From Croceicoccus mobilis (GTDB taxonomy: Bacteria > Pseudomonadota > Alphaproteobacteria > Sphingomonadales > Sphingomonadaceae): DNA of 64,000 nucleotides. Shown in pieces: positions 48,163 through 61,940 of the stretch. Position numbers and translations under genes: made by a program. The notes under the pieces were generated by a model. That model was not told the DNA's origin and did no database searches. It saw nothing but the letters and a program-made list of their open reading frames with translations. Position 1 is the stretch's first letter. Each line of letters starts with the position of its first letter. The stretch lies in assembly GCF_001661965.1 (NCBI RefSeq), contig NZ_LYWZ01000011.1, positions 62,001-126,000 on the forward strand. Direction: 5' to 3'.

Positions 48163-49443
48163 ATGTCGCTTTCCTTTTTCGGCCATAATGGCCGCCGCCT
48201 GCCTTTCACCGCGCTCGCCATCACTCTGGCGGCTGCCGCCCCCACTGCAGCCAATGCAACCGATGGCTATTTCCTCAACGGAGCAGGCGCCAAGGCCAAG
48301 GGCGCGGGCGGGGTCGAGATCGCGATGCCGCAGGATGCCCTTGCCATTTCGGTCAACCCGGCGACAGCGATGGAAATCGGACACCGCCTCGACGTCGGCG
48401 TAGAGATTTTCGTCCCCGACCGCGGCGCCAGCATTTCGGGCAATGCAGCCGGGCTTGACGGTAAATATTCGGGCAATGGCGCCAATCCCTTCGTCCTTCC
48501 GGAAGCGGCCTATGTCCGTCCGCTGTCGGACCGTCTTGCCGTGGGCATCGCCATTAACGGCAATGGAGGGATGAACACCCATTACAAGACCAACCCCTTC
48601 GCCAGCTTTGGCGCCAGCGGTCCGGCGGGCGTCAACCTGCGCCAGATCATGATTTCCCCCACCGCCGCGTATAAGGTGGCACAGGGGCATTCGGTCGGCG
48701 TTTCACCGGTCATCGTTCTGCAAAGCTTCAAGATGCATGGCGCGCAGCCCTTTGCCGCCTACTCGCAGGATCCCGAAAACTTCACGAACAATGGCACGGA
48801 CTGGAGCGCTGGCGTCGGCGTTCGCGTCGGCTATCTCGGTTCGATCGGCGAAAGCGTGAAGATCGGCGCGTTTTACCAGTCGAAGATCAATGCCGGTGAT
48901 TTCGATGATTATGCCGGGCTGTTCGCCGAAAAGGGCGGGTTCGACATTCCCGCTTCCTGGGGCTTTGGCGCTTCGGTAAAGGCAAGCGACGCACTGACCG
49001 TCGGGGCCGATTACAAGCGGATCGACTATTCGGATGTCCAGTCGGTGGGCAATCCGGTCGACAGCCTTTTTCAGGGCGTCCCCTTTGGCGCCGATGGCGG
49101 CCCCGGCTTCGGCTGGCGCGACATCGACGTCTGGAAAGTGGGCGCGATCTATCGCGCCTCCCCGGCGCTGACCCTGCGCGCAGGCTACGGCCGTTCCGAC
49201 AATCCGGTGCCCCGTTCGCAGACCCTGCTCAATGTTTTTGCACCCGGCGTGGTGCGCGGCCATTACACGCTGGGCGCAACGGTAAAGATCGGTGATGGCG
49301 CCGATGTCACTGCCTATGCGATGCGCGCACCGCGTCAGACCGTGCGCGGGTCCGGATCGATCCCGGCCAGCTTTGGCGGCGGAGAGGCCGATGTATATCT
49401 TGCCGAAACCGCGGTCGGGCTGTCTTTCGGCCTGTCGCTTTAA
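48163..49443 (+). CDS. FadL/OmpP1/TodX family outer membrane transport protein, copy 1
   Basis: A 426 aa outer membrane beta-barrel. The signal peptide runs to about residue 34 (FTALAITLAAAAPTAANA), followed by TDGYFLNGAGAKAKGAGGVE, a FadL-family N-terminus that plugs the barrel. The C-terminus alternates hydrophobic residues and ends FGLSL. FadL proteins admit long-chain fatty acids or other hydrophobic substrates. A paralogue lies at 59886-61184. There is no obvious cotranscribed partner, and the substrate is unknown. Confidence 0.9.
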   Translation: MSLSFFGHNGRRLPFTALAITLAAAAPTAANATDGYFLNGAGAKAKGAGGVEIAMPQDALAISVNPATAMEIGHRLDVGVEIFVPDRGASISGNAAGLDGKYSGNGANPFVLPEAAYVRPLSDRLAVGIAINGNGGMNTHYKTNPFASFGASGPAGVNLRQIMISPTAAYKVAQGHSVGVSPVIVLQSFKMHGAQPFAAYSQDPENFTNNGTDWSAGVGVRVGYLGSIGESVKIGAFYQSKINAGDFDDYAGLFAEKGGFDIPASWGFGASVKASDALTVGADYKRIDYSDVQSVGNPVDSLFQGVPFGADGGPGFGWRDIDVWKVGAIYRASPALTLRAGYGRSDNPVPRSQTLLNVFAPGVVRGHYTLGATVKIGDGADVTAYAMRAPRQTVRGSGSIPASFGGGEADVYLAETAVGLSFGLSL

Positions 49444-49541
49444 AGCAGCGGGACTGCGATAAACCCTTGGCTTCCGGAACATTACGGATAACGCGGTCCG
49501 CATAACCGCGCTAGGCAAGTAATTACCGACCAGGAGCGACA

Positions 49542-49598
49542 ATGTCGTTTTGGACCGAAACCGAAAAGGAAAGGTCCTGGACCGAGATTGCGCGATAA
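49542..49598 (+). CDS. Candidate 18 aa leader peptide
   Basis: ATG 49542 follows AGGAG with 5 nt spacing. The peptide reads MSFWTETEKERSWTEIAR, rich in charged residues with two Trp. It ends 11 nt before a terminator-like hairpin. Layout is like an attenuator or a short peptide gene with its own sRNA terminator. No family is recognised. It does not resemble DUF1127. Confidence 0.35.
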   Translation: MSFWTETEKERSWTEIAR

Positions 49599-49609
49599 TC
49601 GGTCGATAG

Positions 49610-49683
49610 AACCTGCGGCGATCCCCAAAACATGATGCCCCGACATGGGCATCACGGGCCGGGGGAAGCCGCAGGTTTTGTCT
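49610..49683 (+). ncRNA. Nested hairpin, terminator-like or structured leader RNA
   Basis: The outer stem AACCTGCGGC (49610-49619) pairs perfectly with GCCGCAGGTT (49668-49677). Inside, TCCCC (49622-49626) pairs with GGGGA (49662-49666). The inner hairpin TGATGCCC (49633-49640) pairs perfectly with GGGCATCA (49647-49654), with loop CGACAT. The outer stem is followed by TTTTGTCTTT. No known riboswitch signature was recognised. Confidence 0.5.
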
Positions 49684-49701
49684 TTGGGCGCATTTCACGC
49701 C

Positions 49702-49777
49702 CCTCCTCCCATTACATCCGTATATTCACCAGATGCAGCCGCGCCCGCCTCCGGCCTAAATGGTCATGGGAAGGAGG
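49702..49777 (+). promoter_or_regulatory. Possible anti-Shine-Dalgarno pairing before the esterase gene
   Basis: CCTCCTCCC (49702-49710) can pair with GGGAAGGAGG (49768-49777), giving CCUCC/GGAGG and CCC/GGG blocks, and so could occlude the esterase ribosome binding site. Needs structural confirmation. Confidence 0.35.
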
Positions 49778-49783
49778 CCGATC

Positions 49784-51121
49784 ATGGGCATCGAGACAAG
49801 AACCGGAGATGCACGCGACAACAAGGCCCTGCATCATCTGCTGCACCGTGTCGCCGAACCGCTGCCCAACCCGTCAAACGCCGAAGCCTTTGGCGAATTT
49901 TTCGACCGCTTTGGCGATGCGCGCGTCGTGCTGCTGGGCGAATGCACCCATGGGACCAGCGAATTCTATCGCGCCCGCTCCGCCATCACGCGCCGCCTGA
50001 TAGAGAGGCACGGCTTTTCCATCGTCGCGGTAGAGGCCGACTGGCCCGACGCCGCTCGCATCGACGAATATGTCCGCCACCGCGCGCCGCGCCCGCGCCG
50101 CGGGGATGTGTTCGCGCGATTTCCGACATGGATGTGGCGCAATCTGGAAGTGCTGGAATTTGCCGATTGGCTGAAGGGGCACAATGCATCCCGCGCGGAA
50201 GAGGATCGAGCTTCGTTCCATGGCCTCGACGTCTATAGCCTCGACGAATCCATGCATGCGGTTATCGCCTACCTCGACAAGGCGGATCCCGCTGCCGCCG
50301 AAAGAGCGCGCAGGCGCTATGGCTGCCTCGAACCTTGGGCAGAAGAACCTGCTGCCTATGGCCATGCCGTCATGCGCGCCGGGATGGACAGCTGCGAAGA
50401 CGTGGCCGTCGCACAGCTTCGCGCCATGCTGGACGAGCGGCTTGGCCGCATGCGCGAGGATGGGGAAAGCTGGTTCGACGCCGTGCAGAATGCGCGCATC
50501 GTCGTTGCGGCAGAACGTTATTACCGCGCCATGTATCGCGGCGGTGTCGACAGCTGGAACCTGCGCGACCGGCACATGTTCGGCACGCTTGAGGCACTGC
50601 TCGCCCATCGCGGCGATCATGCACGGGCCGTTGTCTGGGCGCATAATTCGCATATCGGCAATGCTGCGGCGACCGCGATGGGCTGGCGCGGCGAATTCAA
50701 CATCGGTGAATTGTGCCACATGGCGCATGGCGACGAAGCGGTCGCCATCGGCTTTGGCACCGACCGTGGGCATGTCGCCGCCGCCAGCGATTGGGGCGGC
50801 GACATGGAAATCAAGTCGGTCCGCCCGGCCCGCCCTGATAGCTGGGAACATGCGTTCCGCCACGCAGGGCAGGCCCGCTCGCTCACCGACTGGCGCGGCC
50901 CCGCCCACCGCTACTTGGCCGAGGCGCTTCGCGGCCCCATGCTCGAACGCGCGATCGGCGTCGTCTATCGACCGGAAACCGAGCTTTTGAGCCATTATTT
51001 TGAAGCCGTGATGTGCGAGCAGTTCGATGCGTTCGTCTGGTTCGAGGAGACAACCCCCGTCTCTCCGCTGGGGAAGGAACATCCGCACGGCGCCCCCGAA
51101 ATCTGGCCATTCGGACTTTGA
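49784..51121 (+). CDS. Erythromycin esterase-like family protein
   Basis: A 445 aa member of the EreA/EreB-like (DUF/succinoglycan) hydrolase superfamily. Conserved catalytic blocks are VVLLGECTHGTSEFY, VAVEADWPDA, FHGLDVYSL, AVVWAHNSHIGNA and FGTDRGHVAA, containing the conserved Glu and His residues. Its true substrate is unlikely to be a macrolide. It is the first gene of an esterase-hydrolase-phosphoribosyltransferase operon. These domain types are fused or adjacent in other bacteria. The ATG at 49784 is preceded by AAGGAGG. It lies 3 nt before the next gene. Confidence 0.9.
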   Translation: MGIETRTGDARDNKALHHLLHRVAEPLPNPSNAEAFGEFFDRFGDARVVLLGECTHGTSEFYRARSAITRRLIERHGFSIVAVEADWPDAARIDEYVRHRAPRPRRGDVFARFPTWMWRNLEVLEFADWLKGHNASRAEEDRASFHGLDVYSLDESMHAVIAYLDKADPAAAERARRRYGCLEPWAEEPAAYGHAVMRAGMDSCEDVAVAQLRAMLDERLGRMREDGESWFDAVQNARIVVAAERYYRAMYRGGVDSWNLRDRHMFGTLEALLAHRGDHARAVVWAHNSHIGNAAATAMGWRGEFNIGELCHMAHGDEAVAIGFGTDRGHVAAASDWGGDMEIKSVRPARPDSWEHAFRHAGQARSLTDWRGPAHRYLAEALRGPMLERAIGVVYRPETELLSHYFEAVMCEQFDAFVWFEETTPVSPLGKEHPHGAPEIWPFGL

Positions 51122-51124
51122 CCC

Positions 51125-51784
51125 ATGGATGTCGCGACCCATAGCCCGCATTTCTTCCAACTCGGCCGGCGCGGCCTGCCTGCGGTGCTGCGCATGCCCG
51201 ACAGGGCGCATGGCATCGTCGTATTCGCCCATGGCAGCGGCAGCAGCCATCGCAGCCCGCGCAACAATTACGTGGCCGAGGCGCTGGGCGATGCTGGTCT
51301 TGCCACTTTGTTGTTCGACCTGCTGACCGTGGATGAAGAGCGCAATCGCGCAAATATATTCGACATCGCGCTCTTGTCATCGCGGCTGATCGAGGCAGTC
51401 CGCGAAATGCGGCTTGAACCGGCCTGCGCACATCTCCCCATCGGCCTGTTCGGCGCCAGCACTGGCGCAGGCGCGGCTCTTTATGCTGCGGGGCAGCGGC
51501 CAGAACTGTTTGGCGCCGTCGTATCGCGCGGGGGCAGGCCCGACCTGGCCGGACGCGATGCGCTGGAACATGTGCGCGCGCCCACGCAGCTTATCGTCGG
51601 CGGCGCCGACACGCAGGTTATCGCGTTGAACGAGGCGGCGGCCCGCCACCTGCGCTGCCCGCATGAACTCGTGATCGTAAAGGGGGCCGGGCACCTGTTC
51701 GAGGAGCCGGGCGCTCTGGCTGAAGTCATCGCCGAAGCGAAGCGATGGTTCCTGCTGCATCTGGCAGGGCGAAGAGAGCCATGA
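51125..51784 (+). CDS. Alpha/beta hydrolase (dienelactone hydrolase-like)
   Basis: A 219 aa serine hydrolase. It shows GIVVFAHGSGSSHRSPRNNY (the oxyanion region) and LFGASTGAGAALYAA, the GxSxG-like nucleophile elbow. The Asp is probably in LIVGGADTQVIA and the catalytic His in VKGAGHLFEEPG. The substrate is unknown. It begins 3 nt after the esterase and overlaps the phosphoribosyltransferase by 4 nt (ATGA), indicating coordinated synthesis. Confidence 0.9.
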   Translation: MDVATHSPHFFQLGRRGLPAVLRMPDRAHGIVVFAHGSGSSHRSPRNNYVAEALGDAGLATLLFDLLTVDEERNRANIFDIALLSSRLIEAVREMRLEPACAHLPIGLFGASTGAGAALYAAGQRPELFGAVVSRGGRPDLAGRDALEHVRAPTQLIVGGADTQVIALNEAAARHLRCPHELVIVKGAGHLFEEPGALAEVIAEAKRWFLLHLAGRREP

Positions 51785-52461
51785 GCGCGCAGATCCCCCT
51801 GCCCTTCCGAGACCGCCAGACGGCAGGCCGCCTGCTGGCGCATAGGTTGGAGCATCTGAGGGCTGAACATCCGATCATCCTTGCCCTGCCGCGCGGGGGC
51901 GTTCCGATCGGCTTTGAAATCGCTCGCGCGCTGGATGCGCAGCTGGAATTGCTGATGGTCCGTAAGCTGGGTGCGCCGGGCCATTCCGAATATGCGATCG
52001 GCGCAGTCGTCGATGGCGACGAGCCGCAAATGATCCTGAATGAAGAGGCGGTCAGGATCATCCGACCGGGCCGTGAATATCTGCAGGCGGAACTGGGGCG
52101 CCAACTCGTCGAGATGGAACGCCGCCGCCGCGCCTATATCGGGTCGCGGAAGATGCCGTCCCTGGCAGGCCGAACGATCATCATCGTCGACGACGGGATC
52201 GCGACCGGCTCAACCATTACCGCAGCATTGCAGGGCGCGCGACGCCGAAGTCCGGCAAGGCTGGTGCTCGCCGTCCCGGTCGCGCCCGCTGACGTCGTCC
52301 GAAGGCTGGAAAGTCTTTGCGACGAGATCGTGGTGCTGGCCACGCCCGAGCCGTTCTTTGCGGTGGGTCGGCATTACCGTCATTTCGACCAGGTTTCAGA
52401 CGATCAGGTCGTGCAATTGCTCAACGCCGCGACTCTGGACGGGCAAGGGCGCGAAAGCTGA
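51781..52461 (+). CDS. Phosphoribosyltransferase family protein
   Basis: A 226 aa type I PRTase-fold protein. LPFRDRQTAGRLLAHRL leads into LALPRGGVPIGFEIARAL and LMVRKLGAPGHSEYAIG. The PRPP loop is IIIVDDGIATGSTITAAL. The C-terminus has ATPEPFFAVGRHYRHFDQVS, the motif shared by PRTase-like proteins found with erythromycin esterase and alpha/beta hydrolase domains. The reaction is unknown. ATG 51781 overlaps the hydrolase stop. Confidence 0.92.
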   Translation: MSAQIPLPFRDRQTAGRLLAHRLEHLRAEHPIILALPRGGVPIGFEIARALDAQLELLMVRKLGAPGHSEYAIGAVVDGDEPQMILNEEAVRIIRPGREYLQAELGRQLVEMERRRRAYIGSRKMPSLAGRTIIIVDDGIATGSTITAALQGARRRSPARLVLAVPVAPADVVRRLESLCDEIVVLATPEPFFAVGRHYRHFDQVSDDQVVQLLNAATLDGQGRES

Positions 52462-52637
52462 TACCCACGGCATGGCCCGGGCGATATCATGCACCCTGTC
52501 CGCCCCGCGCATTTCAGGCCATGAGCTTGTTTCGCGAGGCACGATCCGCTGCCCCGCCATGTGCGGATATCCGGTGACCTGCCGGCAAGCCTTTCGCGAA
52601 CAAGACGTTTTCCAGCCCTCTTCCGTGATGGGCCGTG

Positions 52638-52654
52638 CGGGGCGTTTTGCCCCG
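52638..52654 (+). terminator. Small GC hairpin between the PRTase and FixL-like genes
   Basis: CGGGGC-GTTTT-GCCCCG, a perfect 6 bp stem with a 5 nt loop in the 259 nt gap between the two genes. No T tract follows. It may be a weak terminator of the esterase operon. Confidence 0.3.
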
Positions 52655-52720
52655 ATGGCAATCGTGCACGCCCGCAGGGAAAAAACGGGGCGCCCCTGCC
52701 GGGCGCGCCGATAATCGTGT

Positions 52721-54667
52721 ATGGTCACCGCGATCGTAAGCAGGTCAGGCAACAGCGGGTCAGGCATGCGTGCAGACTTGAAAGAGACCGCCCCAAGTTT
52801 CTTCCCGGAGGAGCTTGTCGGGCTGATGCTGGGGCAGGTCCCGGCGTCTTTCGCGCTGTTCGATGCCGACCTCAATTATATCCGCTGCAGCGATCGCTGG
52901 CTGATCGAGAACCAGCTGGAGGGCCGCGATCCGGCCGGCCACTCACTCTATGAAATCTGCCCCGTCGATGCAGAGGCCCTGCGCAGCTGCCACCAGGCGG
53001 TGTTGAAGGGTGAGACGGTCAGCAGCGAGCTTGAACGATGTCGTCGGCGCGATGGCCGGATCGACTGGCTGCGCTGGAGCATGGCACCATGGCATGGAAG
53101 CGACGGGCAGGTTGCGGGCATTCTCATCACCAATGAAGTGCCGACCGCCTCGCTTGAAGATCAGCTGCGCACCCATCTCCTTGACGAGGAACTGTCGCTG
53201 TTCATCGACATCGCGGACCAGTTCGCGCTCTGCATGCTGGACGACAGCGGGCATGTGACGATCTGGAACGCGGGCGCGGAGCGCATGTTCGGATGGAGCG
53301 AGGCCGAGGCGCTGGGCATGCCGCTTTCGCGAACGTTCGAGGCCGGCGAACGCGACCGGCAGGTACCGCAAAGGCAGCTAGATCTTGCGCGCAGCAATGG
53401 AACGTTTCGCGATCGCGGCTGGCGCGTGCGAAAGGACGGGTCGGTATTCCTGGCCGACATCACCATCAGCCTGATCGAGCGTGATGGAGCCCTGCCGGGC
53501 GGGTTTGGCCAGATCGTGCGCGACATCACCGTCGAGGACACGCAGTCCCGCTCGCTGGAGGCGAGTTCGGTTCTGCTGAACTCCATCCTCGAAACCGTGC
53601 CCGATGCGCTGATCGTGATCGATGAACGCGGCATCATCCTGTCATTCAGCAAGGCGGCGGAGGAATTGTTCGGCTATGGGCCGGACGAAGCCGTCGGGCA
53701 GAATGTATCGATGCTGATGCCCATGCCCGAACGCAAGGAGCACGACGGCTATCTGGCGCGCTATCGCCAGACCGGCGTGCCGCATATCATCGGCAGCCAT
53801 CGCCGCCTTATGGGGCAGCGCAAGGACGGGGCGATCTTCCCTCTCGAGCTCCGGGTGGGCGAAGCGTTTGGCGGTGGTCGCAGGCTTTTCGCGGGCTTTC
53901 TGCACGATCTCAGCACGAGCGAGGCAACCGAGGCGCGGCTGCACGAAACCCGCAGGGAGCTTGCCCAGATGGCCCGGCTTAGCGAAATGGGGACACTCGC
54001 GACGGCGATCGCGCATGACCTCAACCAGCCGCTGATGGCGATCGGCAATATCGTCCAGACGTGCGCCCAAACGATCCGCGATGGCGATGCGGCTGCGCTG
54101 GCGCACATGGCGGACGCGCTCGACGAGGCGGGCGCCGAAGCGATGCGAGCTGGCGAGATGATAAAGCGGCTGCGGCGCTTCCTGTCACGCGGAGAGCTGG
54201 AGCGCACGGAGGAGGACCCCGCCGCCATTGCGCGCGAGGCGTGCGAACTGGCCACGCGCGATGCGACATATCGCGGGATCGAGTGGTCGCTTTATCTCGA
54301 TGACAATCCCGCCCGGATATTGATCGACCGCGTCCAGATCCAGCAGGTGCTGATCAATCTCGTGCGCAATGCGATAGAAGCGATCGACCATGGCGGCCAT
54401 ATCGCAGTCGCCGTCACCCGTGATGGCCACGACATATGCTTCAGCGTCACCGATGACGGCCCAGGCATTGCGCCGGACCGGGAGGACAAGCTGTTCACGC
54501 CCTTCTCGACCACGAAACAGACCGGCATGGGGCTTGGCCTCGCCATCTGCAGGACGGTCGTGGAATCGCATGGCGGATCGATGTGGCATCAACGGGTCGC
54601 GAGCGGGGGGGCAAGCTTCCTCTTCACCATTCCAGCCCATGACGGGGAGAGCGTGGATGGCACCTGA
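52721..54667 (+). CDS. fixL: FixL-like haem PAS oxygen-sensor histidine kinase
   Basis: A 648 aa soluble kinase with three PAS domains (about 30-140, 155-275, 285-400). The third is a FixL haem PAS: LMPMPERKEHDGYLARYRQT with proximal His H341 and R347, then H355 in PHII and the distal Arg R361 (equivalent to His200, Arg206, His214 and Arg220 of Bradyrhizobium FixL). Ile218 and Gly219 equivalents are Ser359 and His360. The H-box is AIAHDLNQPLMAIG (H432), followed by a HATPase domain with DDGPGI and GMGLGLAICR. O2 binding would inhibit the kinase. An alternative start is ATG 52766. No membrane helices were seen. Confidence 0.9.
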   Translation: MVTAIVSRSGNSGSGMRADLKETAPSFFPEELVGLMLGQVPASFALFDADLNYIRCSDRWLIENQLEGRDPAGHSLYEICPVDAEALRSCHQAVLKGETVSSELERCRRRDGRIDWLRWSMAPWHGSDGQVAGILITNEVPTASLEDQLRTHLLDEELSLFIDIADQFALCMLDDSGHVTIWNAGAERMFGWSEAEALGMPLSRTFEAGERDRQVPQRQLDLARSNGTFRDRGWRVRKDGSVFLADITISLIERDGALPGGFGQIVRDITVEDTQSRSLEASSVLLNSILETVPDALIVIDERGIILSFSKAAEELFGYGPDEAVGQNVSMLMPMPERKEHDGYLARYRQTGVPHIIGSHRRLMGQRKDGAIFPLELRVGEAFGGGRRLFAGFLHDLSTSEATEARLHETRRELAQMARLSEMGTLATAIAHDLNQPLMAIGNIVQTCAQTIRDGDAAALAHMADALDEAGAEAMRAGEMIKRLRRFLSRGELERTEEDPAAIAREACELATRDATYRGIEWSLYLDDNPARILIDRVQIQQVLINLVRNAIEAIDHGGHIAVAVTRDGHDICFSVTDDGPGIAPDREDKLFTPFSTTKQTGMGLGLAICRTVVESHGGSMWHQRVASGGASFLFTIPAHDGESVDGT

Positions 54668-55340
54668 TCGGAAACTCGTCCATGTCGTCGACGACGAGGA
54701 GGCGATCCGCAGATCGCTCGATTTCCTCCTCAGCAATGCGGGATATCGCGTGCAGCGCTGGGAAAGCGCAGATGCCTTTCTGAAAGGGGCCGACCGCTTC
54801 GAGCCGGCTTGCGCAATGATCGACATGGCAATGCCCGGAATGAACGGCCTCGAACTACAGCGCGAGATGCAGCGGCTGGGCTTCAACTTCCCGGTCATCG
54901 TGCTCTCCGGACACGGCGATATTCCGGTCGCGGTGCAGGCGATGCAAGGAGGGGCCAGCGACTTCATCGAGAAGCCGGCCGACCGCAAGCAATTGCTGGC
55001 AGCGGTCGAATCCGCCTTCAGCAGGCTCTCCGATGAGGAACGGCAGCGCAATCAGGCCGATTGGGCCAAGGTGCAGATCGGCCACCTCACCGCGCGCGAA
55101 CGCGAGGTATTGGATGGTCTGGCCTGTGGCTTTCCGAACAAGACCATCGCCTTCGACCTTGGCATCAGCGCGCGCACGGTGGAGGTCTATCGCGCCAATG
55201 TCATGGCCAAGCTGAATGTCGGCAATTTCGCCGATGCCCTGCGTATCGCCTTTGCCGCGGGCCTCGGTTCAGAGCGTGGATGGCAGCGTGAGCACAATGC
55301 CGACGGCCAGTCCGCCGAACCTGCCGGCAGCAGCGACTGA
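54657..55340 (+). CDS. fixJ: FixJ-type response regulator
   Basis: A 227 aa regulator. Receiver domain with D56 in CAMIDMAMPGMNG and the conserved Lys in DFIEKPADR. The C-terminal LuxR-type HTH has HLTAREREVLDGLACG and AFDLGISARTVEVYRANVM, very close to FixJ. It overlaps the fixL stop by 11 nt and carries a GGGGAGAG ribosome binding site inside fixL. The usual target is a fixK-type gene; none lies in the window. Confidence 0.93.
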   Translation: MAPDRKLVHVVDDEEAIRRSLDFLLSNAGYRVQRWESADAFLKGADRFEPACAMIDMAMPGMNGLELQREMQRLGFNFPVIVLSGHGDIPVAVQAMQGGASDFIEKPADRKQLLAAVESAFSRLSDEERQRNQADWAKVQIGHLTAREREVLDGLACGFPNKTIAFDLGISARTVEVYRANVMAKLNVGNFADALRIAFAAGLGSERGWQREHNADGQSAEPAGSSD

Positions 55341-55357
55341 GCCGCCCCGAACGCATT

Positions 55358-55387
55358 CGCCCGCCGAAGGGGACGCTTCGGCGGGCG
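55358..55387. terminator. Terminator hairpin between fixJ and the universal stress gene
   Basis: A perfect 12 bp inverted repeat, CGCCCGCCGAAG/CTTCGGCGGGCG, with a 6 nt loop. It separates the convergent fixJ and usp genes. There is no clear T tract on either side, but strength and location suit a bidirectional stop. Confidence 0.55.
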
Positions 55388-55415
55388 AAACTTGCGCTGG
55401 ACGGGGTTGCGCAAG

Positions 55416-56216
55416 CTAATGAGCGAGGAAAAGCGGCAAGGTGCACTCTGTCAGCATGGTGCGGGTGACCCCGCCAAATATCCGTTCGGCGGCGCTGGGC
55501 ATGCCATAGGCTCCCATCACGATATATCCGGCATCGACGGCCATGGCATGGTCAATGATGATATGCGCGATCGTGCCGCGCGTCTCGCGCTCTACAAGGC
55601 TGACCGAAATGCCATGGCGCGAAAGATAGCTTGCCGCATCATGCATGGCGAAGGCACCGTCGGGGTTGTTGACCTCGATCATGCTGACTTCGCGCGCCTT
55701 TTTCAAAAGCGGAACGGCGGCACGCAATGCCGCGTTACTGGGGGCCGATCCGTCCCAAGCGATGACCACCGGTCGGGTGACATCGACGCCGCGACCTTCG
55801 GGCGGTACGGCCAGCATCGGGCGCCCGCCTTTCAGCGGCAATTGTTCGGGACGCCTGTCCTTATCCCCGTCAGGACCGCGTGAACGGGAGGACACGACAA
55901 CCATGTCGGCAAGTTCCGCATGGCTCTCGATCGCATTGGCCAGCGGCTCGTGCGATTCCTTCAGTGACCAAGGTACATCTTCGGCCGCAAGGCGGCGTTC
56001 GATTTCGGAGCGTAACCGGGTTTCGTCTTCACGAAGCTCTTCGACGAGCAAGGCTTCGGCCCCACCGCCGGTATAGTAATTTGAAACGATCATCGGCAGG
56101 GCCACCACTTCCAGGCAAGTGAGATGCCCATCGAGTGCGCGCGTCACATCAAGCGCCGCCTGCAGGCGGGCTTCTTGCCCATCATCGTCATGGACGAGGA
56201 GAAGGATGTTCTTCAT
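55416..56216 (-). CDS. Universal stress protein, tandem domains
   Basis: A 266 aa UspA-superfamily protein with two domains. The first domain starts MKNILLLVHDDD. The second begins near residue 148 (RPVVIAWDGSAPSNAALRAA) and ends in VMGAYGMPSAAERIFGGVT, the GxxGxxx..G(S/T) ATP-binding pattern. Tandem USPs often respond to hypoxia and other stress. Oriented toward fixLJ. Confidence 0.9.
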   Translation of the reverse strand: MKNILLLVHDDDGQEARLQAALDVTRALDGHLTCLEVVALPMIVSNYYTGGGAEALLVEELREDETRLRSEIERRLAAEDVPWSLKESHEPLANAIESHAELADMVVVSSRSRGPDGDKDRRPEQLPLKGGRPMLAVPPEGRGVDVTRPVVIAWDGSAPSNAALRAAVPLLKKAREVSMIEVNNPDGAFAMHDAASYLSRHGISVSLVERETRGTIAHIIIDHAMAVDAGYIVMGAYGMPSAAERIFGGVTRTMLTECTLPLFLAH

Positions 56217-56537
56217 GGCCGTTCTCTCCTGTTATCGCCGATCAGCCTAGGATGCGGCGCGATGGCCGGTATTGGGAAATGTACGGAGCTGCGTTCGGGT
56301 GGAAGAAGCGTCCTTCAATGGGCGGCCGCTTCAGCATGAAAGCATGAAGCCCCCTCGCCATGCTGTGCGGCCGCCTGTCGGGCAACCGACCGGCATGCAT
56401 CCTCTCCTCCGCATGGCCCGATGCCCGAATATAAGGACCCCGGCGCGATAACGATCAGGGCTTGCCGGCCACATTGGTGGCGTGGCGCCAATTATGACAT
56501 TGGGAATATTACGTAGGAAACCGGTGTCCGGCCCGCC
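56217..56537. other. 321 nt intergenic region between usp and the exchanger
   Basis: No gene seen. An ATTGG...CCAAT inverted repeat lies at 56473-56492. A TTACGTAG sequence, one base from the FixJ consensus GTAMGTAG, lies at 56509-56516. There is no clean FNR/FixK box (TTGAT-N4-ATCAA). Contains start-proximal promoter DNA for usp. Confidence 0.45.
56509..56516 (+). promoter_or_regulatory. Possible FixJ-box (TTACGTAG)
   Basis: Differs by one base from the FixJ-binding consensus GTAMGTAG known from Sinorhizobium. It lies 293 nt upstream of the usp start and 22 nt from the exchanger stop. The distance from usp is large for a FixJ site, and a similar motif occurs at 7425 by chance, so this is weak. 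Confidence 0.2.
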
Positions 56538-57575
56538 TCACATCGTGCGAACCGCGAAAAGATAGGCTGCCCCCGCCAGATAGACGGCAATCGCGGCCAG
56601 CGACCCCTCCCCCATCCGCAGGAACAACCGGTCGCGCCGCTCGATCAGGGCGAGGACATAGATCCCCGTCAGTGCCATCGCCAGCAATGCCGCCATCGCT
56701 TCGAAATTTCCAGCGAGAGCGAGGACCGGACCGCCGGGCGAGGCAAGGTCGATGACGAAGATGATCGCGATGTTGAACAGGTTCGACCCGAATATCTCAC
56801 CCACGGCGAGTTCATAATGCCGCTGCCGCATGGCCCCGACGATTCCGCTGAGTTCGGGAAGCGAGGTTGCGGCGGCCACGAACAGAAAGCCGACCGGCTG
56901 CTGGCCAAGACCGCTGTCGCGCGCGATGATGTCGGCCGACCAGGCAAGCAGCAGGCCGCCCAGGAGTATCACCGCCGCCAATGCTGCGATGACCGCGATC
57001 AGTTTTCGCCACGCGATCGCGGCAGGGGCGGAAGCCTCGGCCAGGTCGGGGACGACGGGGTCCACCACCAGCCACATCGGACGGCGCTCTGCCCGACTGG
57101 CAATCGCCAGCGCCCCGATGCACAGCACCAGTATTCCGCTTGACCACGGGCCGACAAAGCCCGGCCAGCCCCCCGCCCCCGCGACGATGGCCGCTGTCAC
57201 GACCACCAGCAAGAGCATGCCGAGAACCCCCTGCACCTGCACCACTGGCCGCGCCACGACCGAAGTCAGGGGCCGCTTCCCGATGATCAGGTCGGCAAAG
57301 GCGAGAAGCAGTATGTTAAAACTCGCGCTGCCAAGAATATTGTTGAGCGCGATCAGCGGCGTACCCATCGCCGACGCGCTGGTCGCGGTGGCCAGTTCGG
57401 GAAGCGACGTAATGCTTCCCAGCACCAGCAATCCTGCAAAACCATGGCCCAGGCCGGTCTTTTCGCTAAGCGCGACGACATAGCTCGGCAGCCGGGTCCC
57501 CGCGATCCAGACAAGTGCCGCCGCCCCGACAAATACGGGGACCGCGACAATCAGATCAGGAAACCCTGCCAGCAT
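56538..57575 (-). CDS. Na+/Ca2+ exchanger-family (CaCA) membrane protein
   Basis: A 345 aa membrane protein with two alpha-repeats characteristic of CaCA exchangers: VLGSITSLPELATATSASAM in the first and AAATSLPELSGIVGAM with GEIFGSNLFNIAIIF in the second. About ten hydrophobic helices are predicted. It exchanges cations across the inner membrane; Ca2+ against Na+ or H+ is likely, but specificity is not provable from sequence. Follows the usp gene on the same strand region but is transcribed separately. Confidence 0.88.
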   Translation of the reverse strand: MLAGFPDLIVAVPVFVGAAALVWIAGTRLPSYVVALSEKTGLGHGFAGLLVLGSITSLPELATATSASAMGTPLIALNNILGSASFNILLLAFADLIIGKRPLTSVVARPVVQVQGVLGMLLLVVVTAAIVAGAGGWPGFVGPWSSGILVLCIGALAIASRAERRPMWLVVDPVVPDLAEASAPAAIAWRKLIAVIAALAAVILLGGLLLAWSADIIARDSGLGQQPVGFLFVAAATSLPELSGIVGAMRQRHYELAVGEIFGSNLFNIAIIFVIDLASPGGPVLALAGNFEAMAALLAMALTGIYVLALIERRDRLFLRMGEGSLAAIAVYLAGAAYLFAVRTM

Positions 57576-61881: not shown

Positions 61882-61940
61882 TTTGGAATACCTTAAGGGA
61901 AATAACTGATTCCCGAGCTGAACCGGAGAGGTCCATATTC

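Follow-up and report, generated by a model that had tools for sequence, protein, structure and literature searches.

The window analysed here is a 64,000-nucleotide stretch of the Croceicoccus mobilis genome (contig NZ_LYWZ01000011.1, positions 62,001 to 126,000); the contig measures 268 kb and the genome 4.2 Mb. It carries, side by side, a three-gene operon (EST, HYD and PRT), a sensor kinase and response regulator resembling the FixL-FixJ pair, and a gene for a tandem universal stress protein (USP), together with predicted FixJ-binding sites (hereafter boxes) and a structured RNA. The genes are indeed found where an earlier, sequence-only reading had placed them; the RNA, at 49530-49690, is not in that reading.

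The three-enzyme operon and its neighbouring sensor and regulator

EST (49784..51121, + strand), whose start is preceded by GGAAGGAGG, encodes a hydrolase of the erythromycin-esterase family (PF05139, E 1.2e-129). After a gap of 3 nt comes HYD (51125..51784, + strand), an alpha/beta hydrolase resembling dienelactone hydrolase (DLH), with matches to PF00561 and PF01738 and a GASTG nucleophile motif recognized by eye. Its stop codon is overlapped, in the sequence ATGA, by the ATG at 51781 of PRT (51781..52461, + strand), a phosphoribosyltransferase (PRTase) of the TT1426 type. The coupled junctions described in the sequence-only reading are thus as stated there. PRT has both hallmarks of a PRTase, the PF00156 domain and an aligned phosphoribosyl pyrophosphate (PRPP) loop, IIIVDDGIATGST, and resembles the Thermus thermophilus TT1426 protein over almost its full length (1wd5, E 1.7e-42). 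TT1426 was itself deposited as a hypothetical protein, and no substrate can be transferred from it to PRT.

EST combines the two features by which the Ere superfamily is recognized, PF05139 and the catalytic E, H, E, R, H set. Its residues E53, H56, E84, R261 and H290, invariant in 10 sequences, map by alignment to E47, H50, E78, R261 and H289 of EreC, whose catalytic roles are described in the accessible part of PMC7979712. EST is therefore like EreB, EreC and BcR135/136 in family and catalytic residues. It differs in missing the EreB cut-off: on the profiles of the resistance enzymes EreA, EreB and EreD it reaches at most 40 bits where 750-800 are required (40 against 750 for EreB), and for this reason it is not predicted to be a macrolide-resistance enzyme.

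Relatives of the esterase occur in 45 of 199 genomes of the family, 20 of them with a member of the window's clade (clade 1), 24 with a member of a second clade and one with fragments only. EST, HYD and PRT stand together in 15 of the 20 clade 1 loci. Among the other five, one (L046) has FixLJ adjoining the esterase, no hydrolase and a distant PRTase, and another (L049) stops at a contig edge. In two metagenome-assembled genomes (MAGs), the three are a single protein in one frame, in the order PRTase-HYD-EST: 881 residues in a Marinosulfonomonas MAG (L221, 4207-6852) and 903 residues in a Rhodobacteraceae MAG (L230, 3-2714), where the frame starts at the contig end. Pfam confirmed both. Because the three genes keep together in most of these loci and are joined in two MAGs, it is likely that the enzymes serve one pathway, as the sequence-only reading had proposed; operon order and triple fusion both favour this. 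In another locus a PRTase (L063, 10723-11883) is fused to two CBS domains and lies beside the esterase.

The sensor kinase (52721..54667, + strand) was assigned by domain and NCBIfam profile matches, the best of the latter being NF041777. It contains three PAS domains, and the end of its gene is overlapped by the start of the gene for the FixJ-like response regulator (54657..55340, + strand). The third PAS domain, PAS3 (53567..53956, + strand), aligns with the FixL haem PAS and is the predicted O2-binding domain. It is identical to Bradyrhizobium FixL (BjFixL) at 68 of 125 positions, without a gap. The nearest solved structures are FixL haem PAS domains, 8js5 (E 8.8e-41) and 1dp6 (E 1.8e-40), and the next family, DosP, follows at E 2.9e-14. 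H341, R347, H355 and R361, which we take to correspond to Bradyrhizobium FixL positions 200, 206, 214 and 220, are all present, so that PAS3 has the equivalents of His200, Arg206 and Arg220 by which a FixL haem PAS is recognized. In 67 FixL-type PAS domains of the fetched loci (the window's left out, two at only 35% identity included), all 67 have His at the site of His200, 51 have Arg at that of Arg206 and 65 have Arg at that of Arg220; only 6 have a His matching His214, and most have Arg there. It is therefore the domain as a whole, and not the four residues, that carries the case for haem. The sequence-only reading had argued from these four; they are all there, and the point made of H355 is weak.

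The regulator adjoins the sensor gene, joins REC to GerE and has the phospho-acceptor Asp (D56) and the Lys (K106) expected of FixJ; predicted boxes of FixJ type lie near the gene pair. Taken together, the ungapped PAS3 alignment, the four residues and the FixJ-like partner support, at the level of sequence, the assignment of the pair to the O2-sensing type. Elsewhere (L110, 7792-9324 and 9405-10880), two FixL-like sensor frames are adjacent in the same genome, with no FixJ match in the region.

Predicted FixJ boxes

The motif was obtained by expectation maximization (EM) on 197 upstream regions of relatives' island genes, with the window excluded. The published Sinorhizobium meliloti FixJ site, TAAGTAATTTCCCTTA (PMC4999443), was the only seed: the EM was repeated from this site alone because an earlier seed had been picked after a dyad search that included the window. 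The trained motif,.aT.CGtA..tTtCCg.AT., is built on 102 sites and holds 15.3 bits, while five shuffled training sets gave other motifs, of 8.5-8.75 bits. It aligns with the S. meliloti fixK site, to which the trained model gives 15.4 bits. Blind dyad discovery in the EST promoters alone had barely exceeded the shuffles (4 against 3-4), though pointing to CGTAA-NN-TTCCG; after this weak result, it was the larger promoter set and the EM model that settled the motif. An EM run from an FNR-type seed was discarded, since it ended as a low-information motif of 9.7 bits.

Over the ~128,000 positions of the window's two strands, the three best are 49471, 56498 and 56270, and they remain so when all EST and USP promoters are taken out of the training (n=141). 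The first box, CTTCCGGAACATTACGGATA (49471..49490, + strand, 20.6 bits), precedes the operon. The second (56498..56517, - strand, 20.3 bits) and the third (56270..56289, - strand, 17.1 bits) are upstream of the tandem usp gene (55416..56216, - strand, PF00582 twice), the third by 54 nt. The low-oxygen control proposed earlier for the esterase operon and usp is thereby strengthened, in that FixJ-like boxes are predicted before both. A weak second site near the EST start, CATCCGTATATTCACCAGAT (49715..49734, + strand, 8.6 bits), is tentative; Croceicoccus ponticola, which has the same island, shows a similar stretch in the corresponding position when the two are compared by eye.

Sites of at least 12 bits were counted in the training promoters, a count that is partly circular: HSP20 12/14, CRP 5/6, USP 21/37, HOSTATT 6/11, PPSA 5/11, EST 8/19, FIXL 24/66, HLYD 1/4, AAAkin 1/7, ZnADH 2/14 and MBLexo 0/8, with shuffled controls at 0-1.6. 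A strict pattern has 7 matches in the 4.2-Mb genome and its reversed control 1; three of the 7 are the window's boxes, by construction, because the pattern was written with them in view. The other four lie outside the window (L128-L131); one of them precedes a Porin_O_P gene and another adjoins a response regulator of sigma-54 type.

An FNR/FixK box was also sought for the operon promoter of the window. None lies near, and the 4 one-mismatch matches in 64 kb equal the 3.9 expected. Among the Crp-type genes of the genome, one (L002) shows by eye an FnrN-like Cys cluster, and another (L004), which has an FNR box, adjoins a gene for haem-copper oxidase subunit I (COX1), judged by eye to be cbb3-type.

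The CaCA exchanger gene beyond usp (56538..57575, - strand, PF01699) had been counted as part of the module, which the analysis does not bear out: its best upstream site has 6.6 bits, and one weak site (9.9 bits, 57394) lies inside the gene. It looks like a bystander.

The structured RNA upstream of EST

The RNA between the 49471 box and EST folds with a z-score of -6.0 against shuffles, and copies of it were recognized in C. ponticola (L155) and in a second genome, G165 (L065). The covariance model built from these three matches 6 of 397 family genomes: the window (49530-49690, + strand, where the model match covers 49530-49676 and is followed by TTTTGTCTTT), L242 (10000-10142), L065 (14849-14709, - strand), L075 (8496-8637), L240 (10128-9987, - strand) and L241 (9963-10102). 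In the six-copy alignment, which was fitted to the covariance model and so favours the covariation count, 21 of 39 pairs are changed on both sides and 91% of cells pair. None of 500 shuffles reaches the covariation values (18 of 500 for the pair types), and slid structures give at most 4. Conserved CCCAARAY and CGGRCCRGGG sequences flank a hairpin of widely varying sequence.

Four of the copies, those of the window, C. ponticola, G165 and G181, lie in FixLJ islands, and in G276 FixLJ is 4.2 kb off. The sixth, in G353, directly precedes a PRTase gene, and the 20 kb fetched there contain no FixLJ; the first GTG of that gene's longest frame is inside the RNA match and an ATG comes after it. In the window (59 nt), C. 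ponticola (G221), G181 and G276, the start of a FixJ-like box lies 57-59 nt ahead of the model's first base, the G276 box in this register scoring 12.1 bits. In G165 the nearest box (14.9 bits) ends ~115 nt upstream of the RNA, and in G353 there is no site of at least 9 bits upstream of it.

The RNA is a candidate new family. The window's RNA region has no Rfam match at E <=1, and the five other copies have none at E <=0.1 apart from an unrelated tRNA in L239; no report of a FixJ-linked structured RNA, or of an EST-HYD-PRT operon, was found in the open-licence papers searched. The RNA may be a FixJ-linked small RNA (sRNA) or the leader of the esterase operon. Other descriptions of the region were tried and dropped. 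A small open reading frame at 49542-49598 (18 codons) is, as judged by eye, cut short by a stop in L155 and lacks an ATG in L065. A strict RNA pattern matched 2 of 199 genomes; a looser one matched 26 of 397, with stems seen by eye in only 5, and its reversed control matched too.

Distribution, rival explanations and known systems

Clade 1 esterases keep company with FixL. FixL was found in 18 of the 20 genomes that have such an esterase, against 67 of the 179 others (P 5.7e-6; 17 of 19, P 1.2e-5, minus the window's genome). For the second clade the figures are 12 of 24 against 73 of 175 (P 0.51), and FixLJ was in none of the 20 clade 2 loci fetched out of 24, a 26% kinase match in L133 not being counted. 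FixL is within 35 kb of the esterase in 7 of 17 genomes, the window's excluded, where 0.48 are expected (P 1.8e-7, for a cut chosen post hoc), and within 15 kb in 3 of the 17 (P 1e-3).

Oxygen-type boxes recur at the esterase promoters. Those of 19 family relatives show a FixJ-like box in 8 cases (0.2 expected; 6 when the model is trained on neither EST nor USP promoters) and a perfect FNR/FixK box in 4 (0.05 expected), never both; in that of L054 an FNR box is accompanied by a site of 11.2 bits. The named loci, which are the best 80 of 570 (79 with enough upstream DNA), gave FNR boxes in 5/33 and FixJ-like boxes in 6/33 where PRT or HYD is near (0.0 and 0.8 expected), 0/24 and 2/24 where the esterase stands alone (0.0 and 0.45 expected), and 2/21 and 1/21 for PCMT fusions (0.0 and 0.3 expected). 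The single triple fusion with upstream DNA among them has an FNR box; the perfect FNR box of the L221 fusion is at -49. In clade 2, a FixJ-like site of at least 15 bits was present in 3 of 20 fetched loci. The clade 2 esterase had been thought to be a PRTase fusion, wrongly: both proteins scanned have PCMT as their fused domain. In L137 (8254-10218) and L136 (8151-10325), an Ere-type esterase follows PCMT (isoaspartyl methyltransferase), joining esterase and carboxyl methyltransferase, a fusion seen in 21 of the best 80 of 570 loci.

We consider it probable that the locus is a FixLJ-controlled low-oxygen island comprising the sensor, the boxes, the RNA, the three-enzyme operon and USP. PAS3 would bind haem and, when O2 leaves the haem, the kinase would phosphorylate FixJ at D56. 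The phosphorylated regulator would then bind three inverted repeats of the form T-N-CGTA..tTtCCg-N-AT, the boxes at 49471, 56270 and 56498. That at 49471 would switch on the structured RNA and probably also drive EST-HYD-PRT, by read-through or with the weak 49715 site, and the other two would switch on the tandem USP. EST, HYD and PRT might then act as a unit on a phosphoribosyl- or ester-containing metabolite in micro-oxic, slow-growth stress. Of all this, the computation itself establishes the genes, the motif with its positions, the operon and its fused form, and the covariation of the RNA.

Besides the circularity of the promoter counts and the construction of the strict pattern, several observations weigh against this interpretation. 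The sensor reaches 428.2 of the 850 bits required by NF041777, a model for rhizobial FixL, and the regulator 234.7 of the 255 bits of NF006900 (FixJ), which is why they are called FixL-like and FixJ-like. With the untrained S. meliloti site, position 61892, far from the island, ranks first, and of the three boxes only 56498 comes up (third). The window's fixL promoter is without a FixJ box (best -0.1 bits) and the regions of seven Crp-type genes in the genome do not exceed 11.9 bits, so that the classical FixLJ-FixK chain is not evident. The 49471 box may serve the RNA alone, being ~290 nt before EST with the RNA in between. Sixty further FixL regions, drawn from the 108 PAS matches of the family genome search, hold no clade 1-type esterase, which makes the linkage of FixL and esterase a tendency rather than a rule, and the three other genomes of the genus in the genome searches have neither FixL-type PAS nor esterase. 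Finally, the RNA is seldom found, and the majority of FixLJ islands are without it: the model finds it in 2 of those 60 regions (58 are without), in none of 49 other EST-family loci (best E 0.2) and, among 385 class genomes searched with Infernal's stricter filters, only in the window's own genome.

Part of this would be accounted for if FixJ controlled only the RNA and usp, EST-HYD-PRT being a neighbour with its own promoter and the RNA a trans-acting sRNA that ends at a terminator-like stem. The constant spacing of box and RNA in four genomes is consistent with this, as are the fetched regions of G165, G181 and G276, in which no EST was found, and the 49 esterase loci from which the RNA is missing. 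However, the relatives' EST promoters carry their own FixJ-like (8/19) or FNR/FixK boxes (4/19), the RNA being absent where it was searched for; the G353 copy stands directly before PRT, and a simple terminator scan of 49400-49800 found none. We consider this account somewhat unlikely. It is unlikely, too, that the locus is an ordinary micro-oxic stress island, in which FixLJ keeps company with USP, Hsp20 and others, EST, HYD and PRT being general-stress passengers. The available portions of published micro-oxic and FixK gene sets hold the same companions (PMC2908626, PMC6515984, PMC6127331), and USP is present in 28 and HSP20 in 14 of the 60 further FixL regions; yet the triple fusion, the operon order, the oxygen boxes that 12 of 19 relatives have at EST and the RNA all exceed that gene set. 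That the pair answers to a signal other than O2, the sensor having lost its haem or sensing redox or NO, seems quite improbable. The two extra PAS domains without assigned ligand and the scores under the NCBIfam cut-offs could be read in this way, but the haem PAS is full and ungapped with its four residues, and FNR/FixK boxes occur at the same operon in relatives.

A FixLJ-controlled low-oxygen island thus remains our preferred interpretation. It upholds part of the hypoxia-responsive module of the sequence-only reading: the pair and the common pathway are supported, with boxes now added, and the exchanger is not; close linkage is weaker than that reading suggested, and the likeness to DosR is not specific. 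The predicted co-occurrence of FixL and esterase is likewise borne out by genome and weak at close range.

The pair resembles the FixL-FixJ systems of rhizobia and Caulobacter in its haem-type PAS, its HisKA/HATPase sensor, its REC-GerE partner and a motif that aligns with the S. meliloti fixK site. It differs in having three PAS domains and in that sites found there at fixK or nifA are here predicted in front of usp, a structured RNA and an operon of metabolic enzymes. A FixL-type PAS (E <= 1e-20) is present in 85 of the 199 genomes of this sphingomonad family, where such sensors are therefore common, while the reconstruction in PMC4999443, in its accessible text, places FixLJ in Caulobacterales and Rhizobiales and gives Sphingomonadales only FnrN. 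Sphingobium hydrophobicum has a plasmid-borne FixLJ, missing from 18 other Sphingobium genomes except one, according to the part available of PMC6783567.

The FixK/FNR/Anr regulons and the Burkholderia lxa locus are alike in gene content, with USP, Hsp20, CBS, Zn-ADH, HlyD and host-attachment genes; they depend on Crp-type regulators, and the portions of these sources available to us name no Ere-hydrolase-PRTase operon or structured RNA. The predicted FixK regulon includes Hsp20, HlyD, CBS and Zn-ADH (PMC2908626), the micro-oxic set of B. diazoefficiens USPs, Hsp20, host attachment, HlyD and CBS (PMC6515984), and the lxa locus six USPs and a heat shock protein (PMC6127331); PMC9104464 describes a further set of this sort. 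Because FixK and other micro-oxic sets share the resemblance, the gene set is not DosR-specific, and only the likeness in content survives from the comparison first drawn with DosR.

The DosR system of Mycobacterium tuberculosis has haem GAF sensors and a GerE-type regulator, and the DosR-regulon protein Rv0571c includes a DLH half. Its low-oxygen set, like the island, brings together USPs, Hsp20, PRTase and Ere-like proteins (PMC4410610, PMC5309233 and PMC6127331, in the parts available): Rv2030c joins PRTase to Ere (PMC4410610), and Rv0571c is a putative PRTase (PMC5309233). Sensor domain and regulator family differ, the genes here are separate and the phylum is another, which leaves a likeness of gene content only. 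It is conceivable, and we propose it tentatively, that FixJ directly drives a new RNA family and a three-enzyme pathway, of Ere-type hydrolase, Ser hydrolase and TT1426-type PRTase, which would make or break a phosphoribosyl metabolite of oxygen-limited dormancy, and that DosR controls the same pathway, in the form of fusions, in mycobacteria. The island could in any case serve as a tractable environmental model for the PRTase and Ere-like dormancy proteins, whose joint action is suggested by the operon, the fusion and the oxygen boxes, and a covarying RNA associated with FixLJ islands comes with it.

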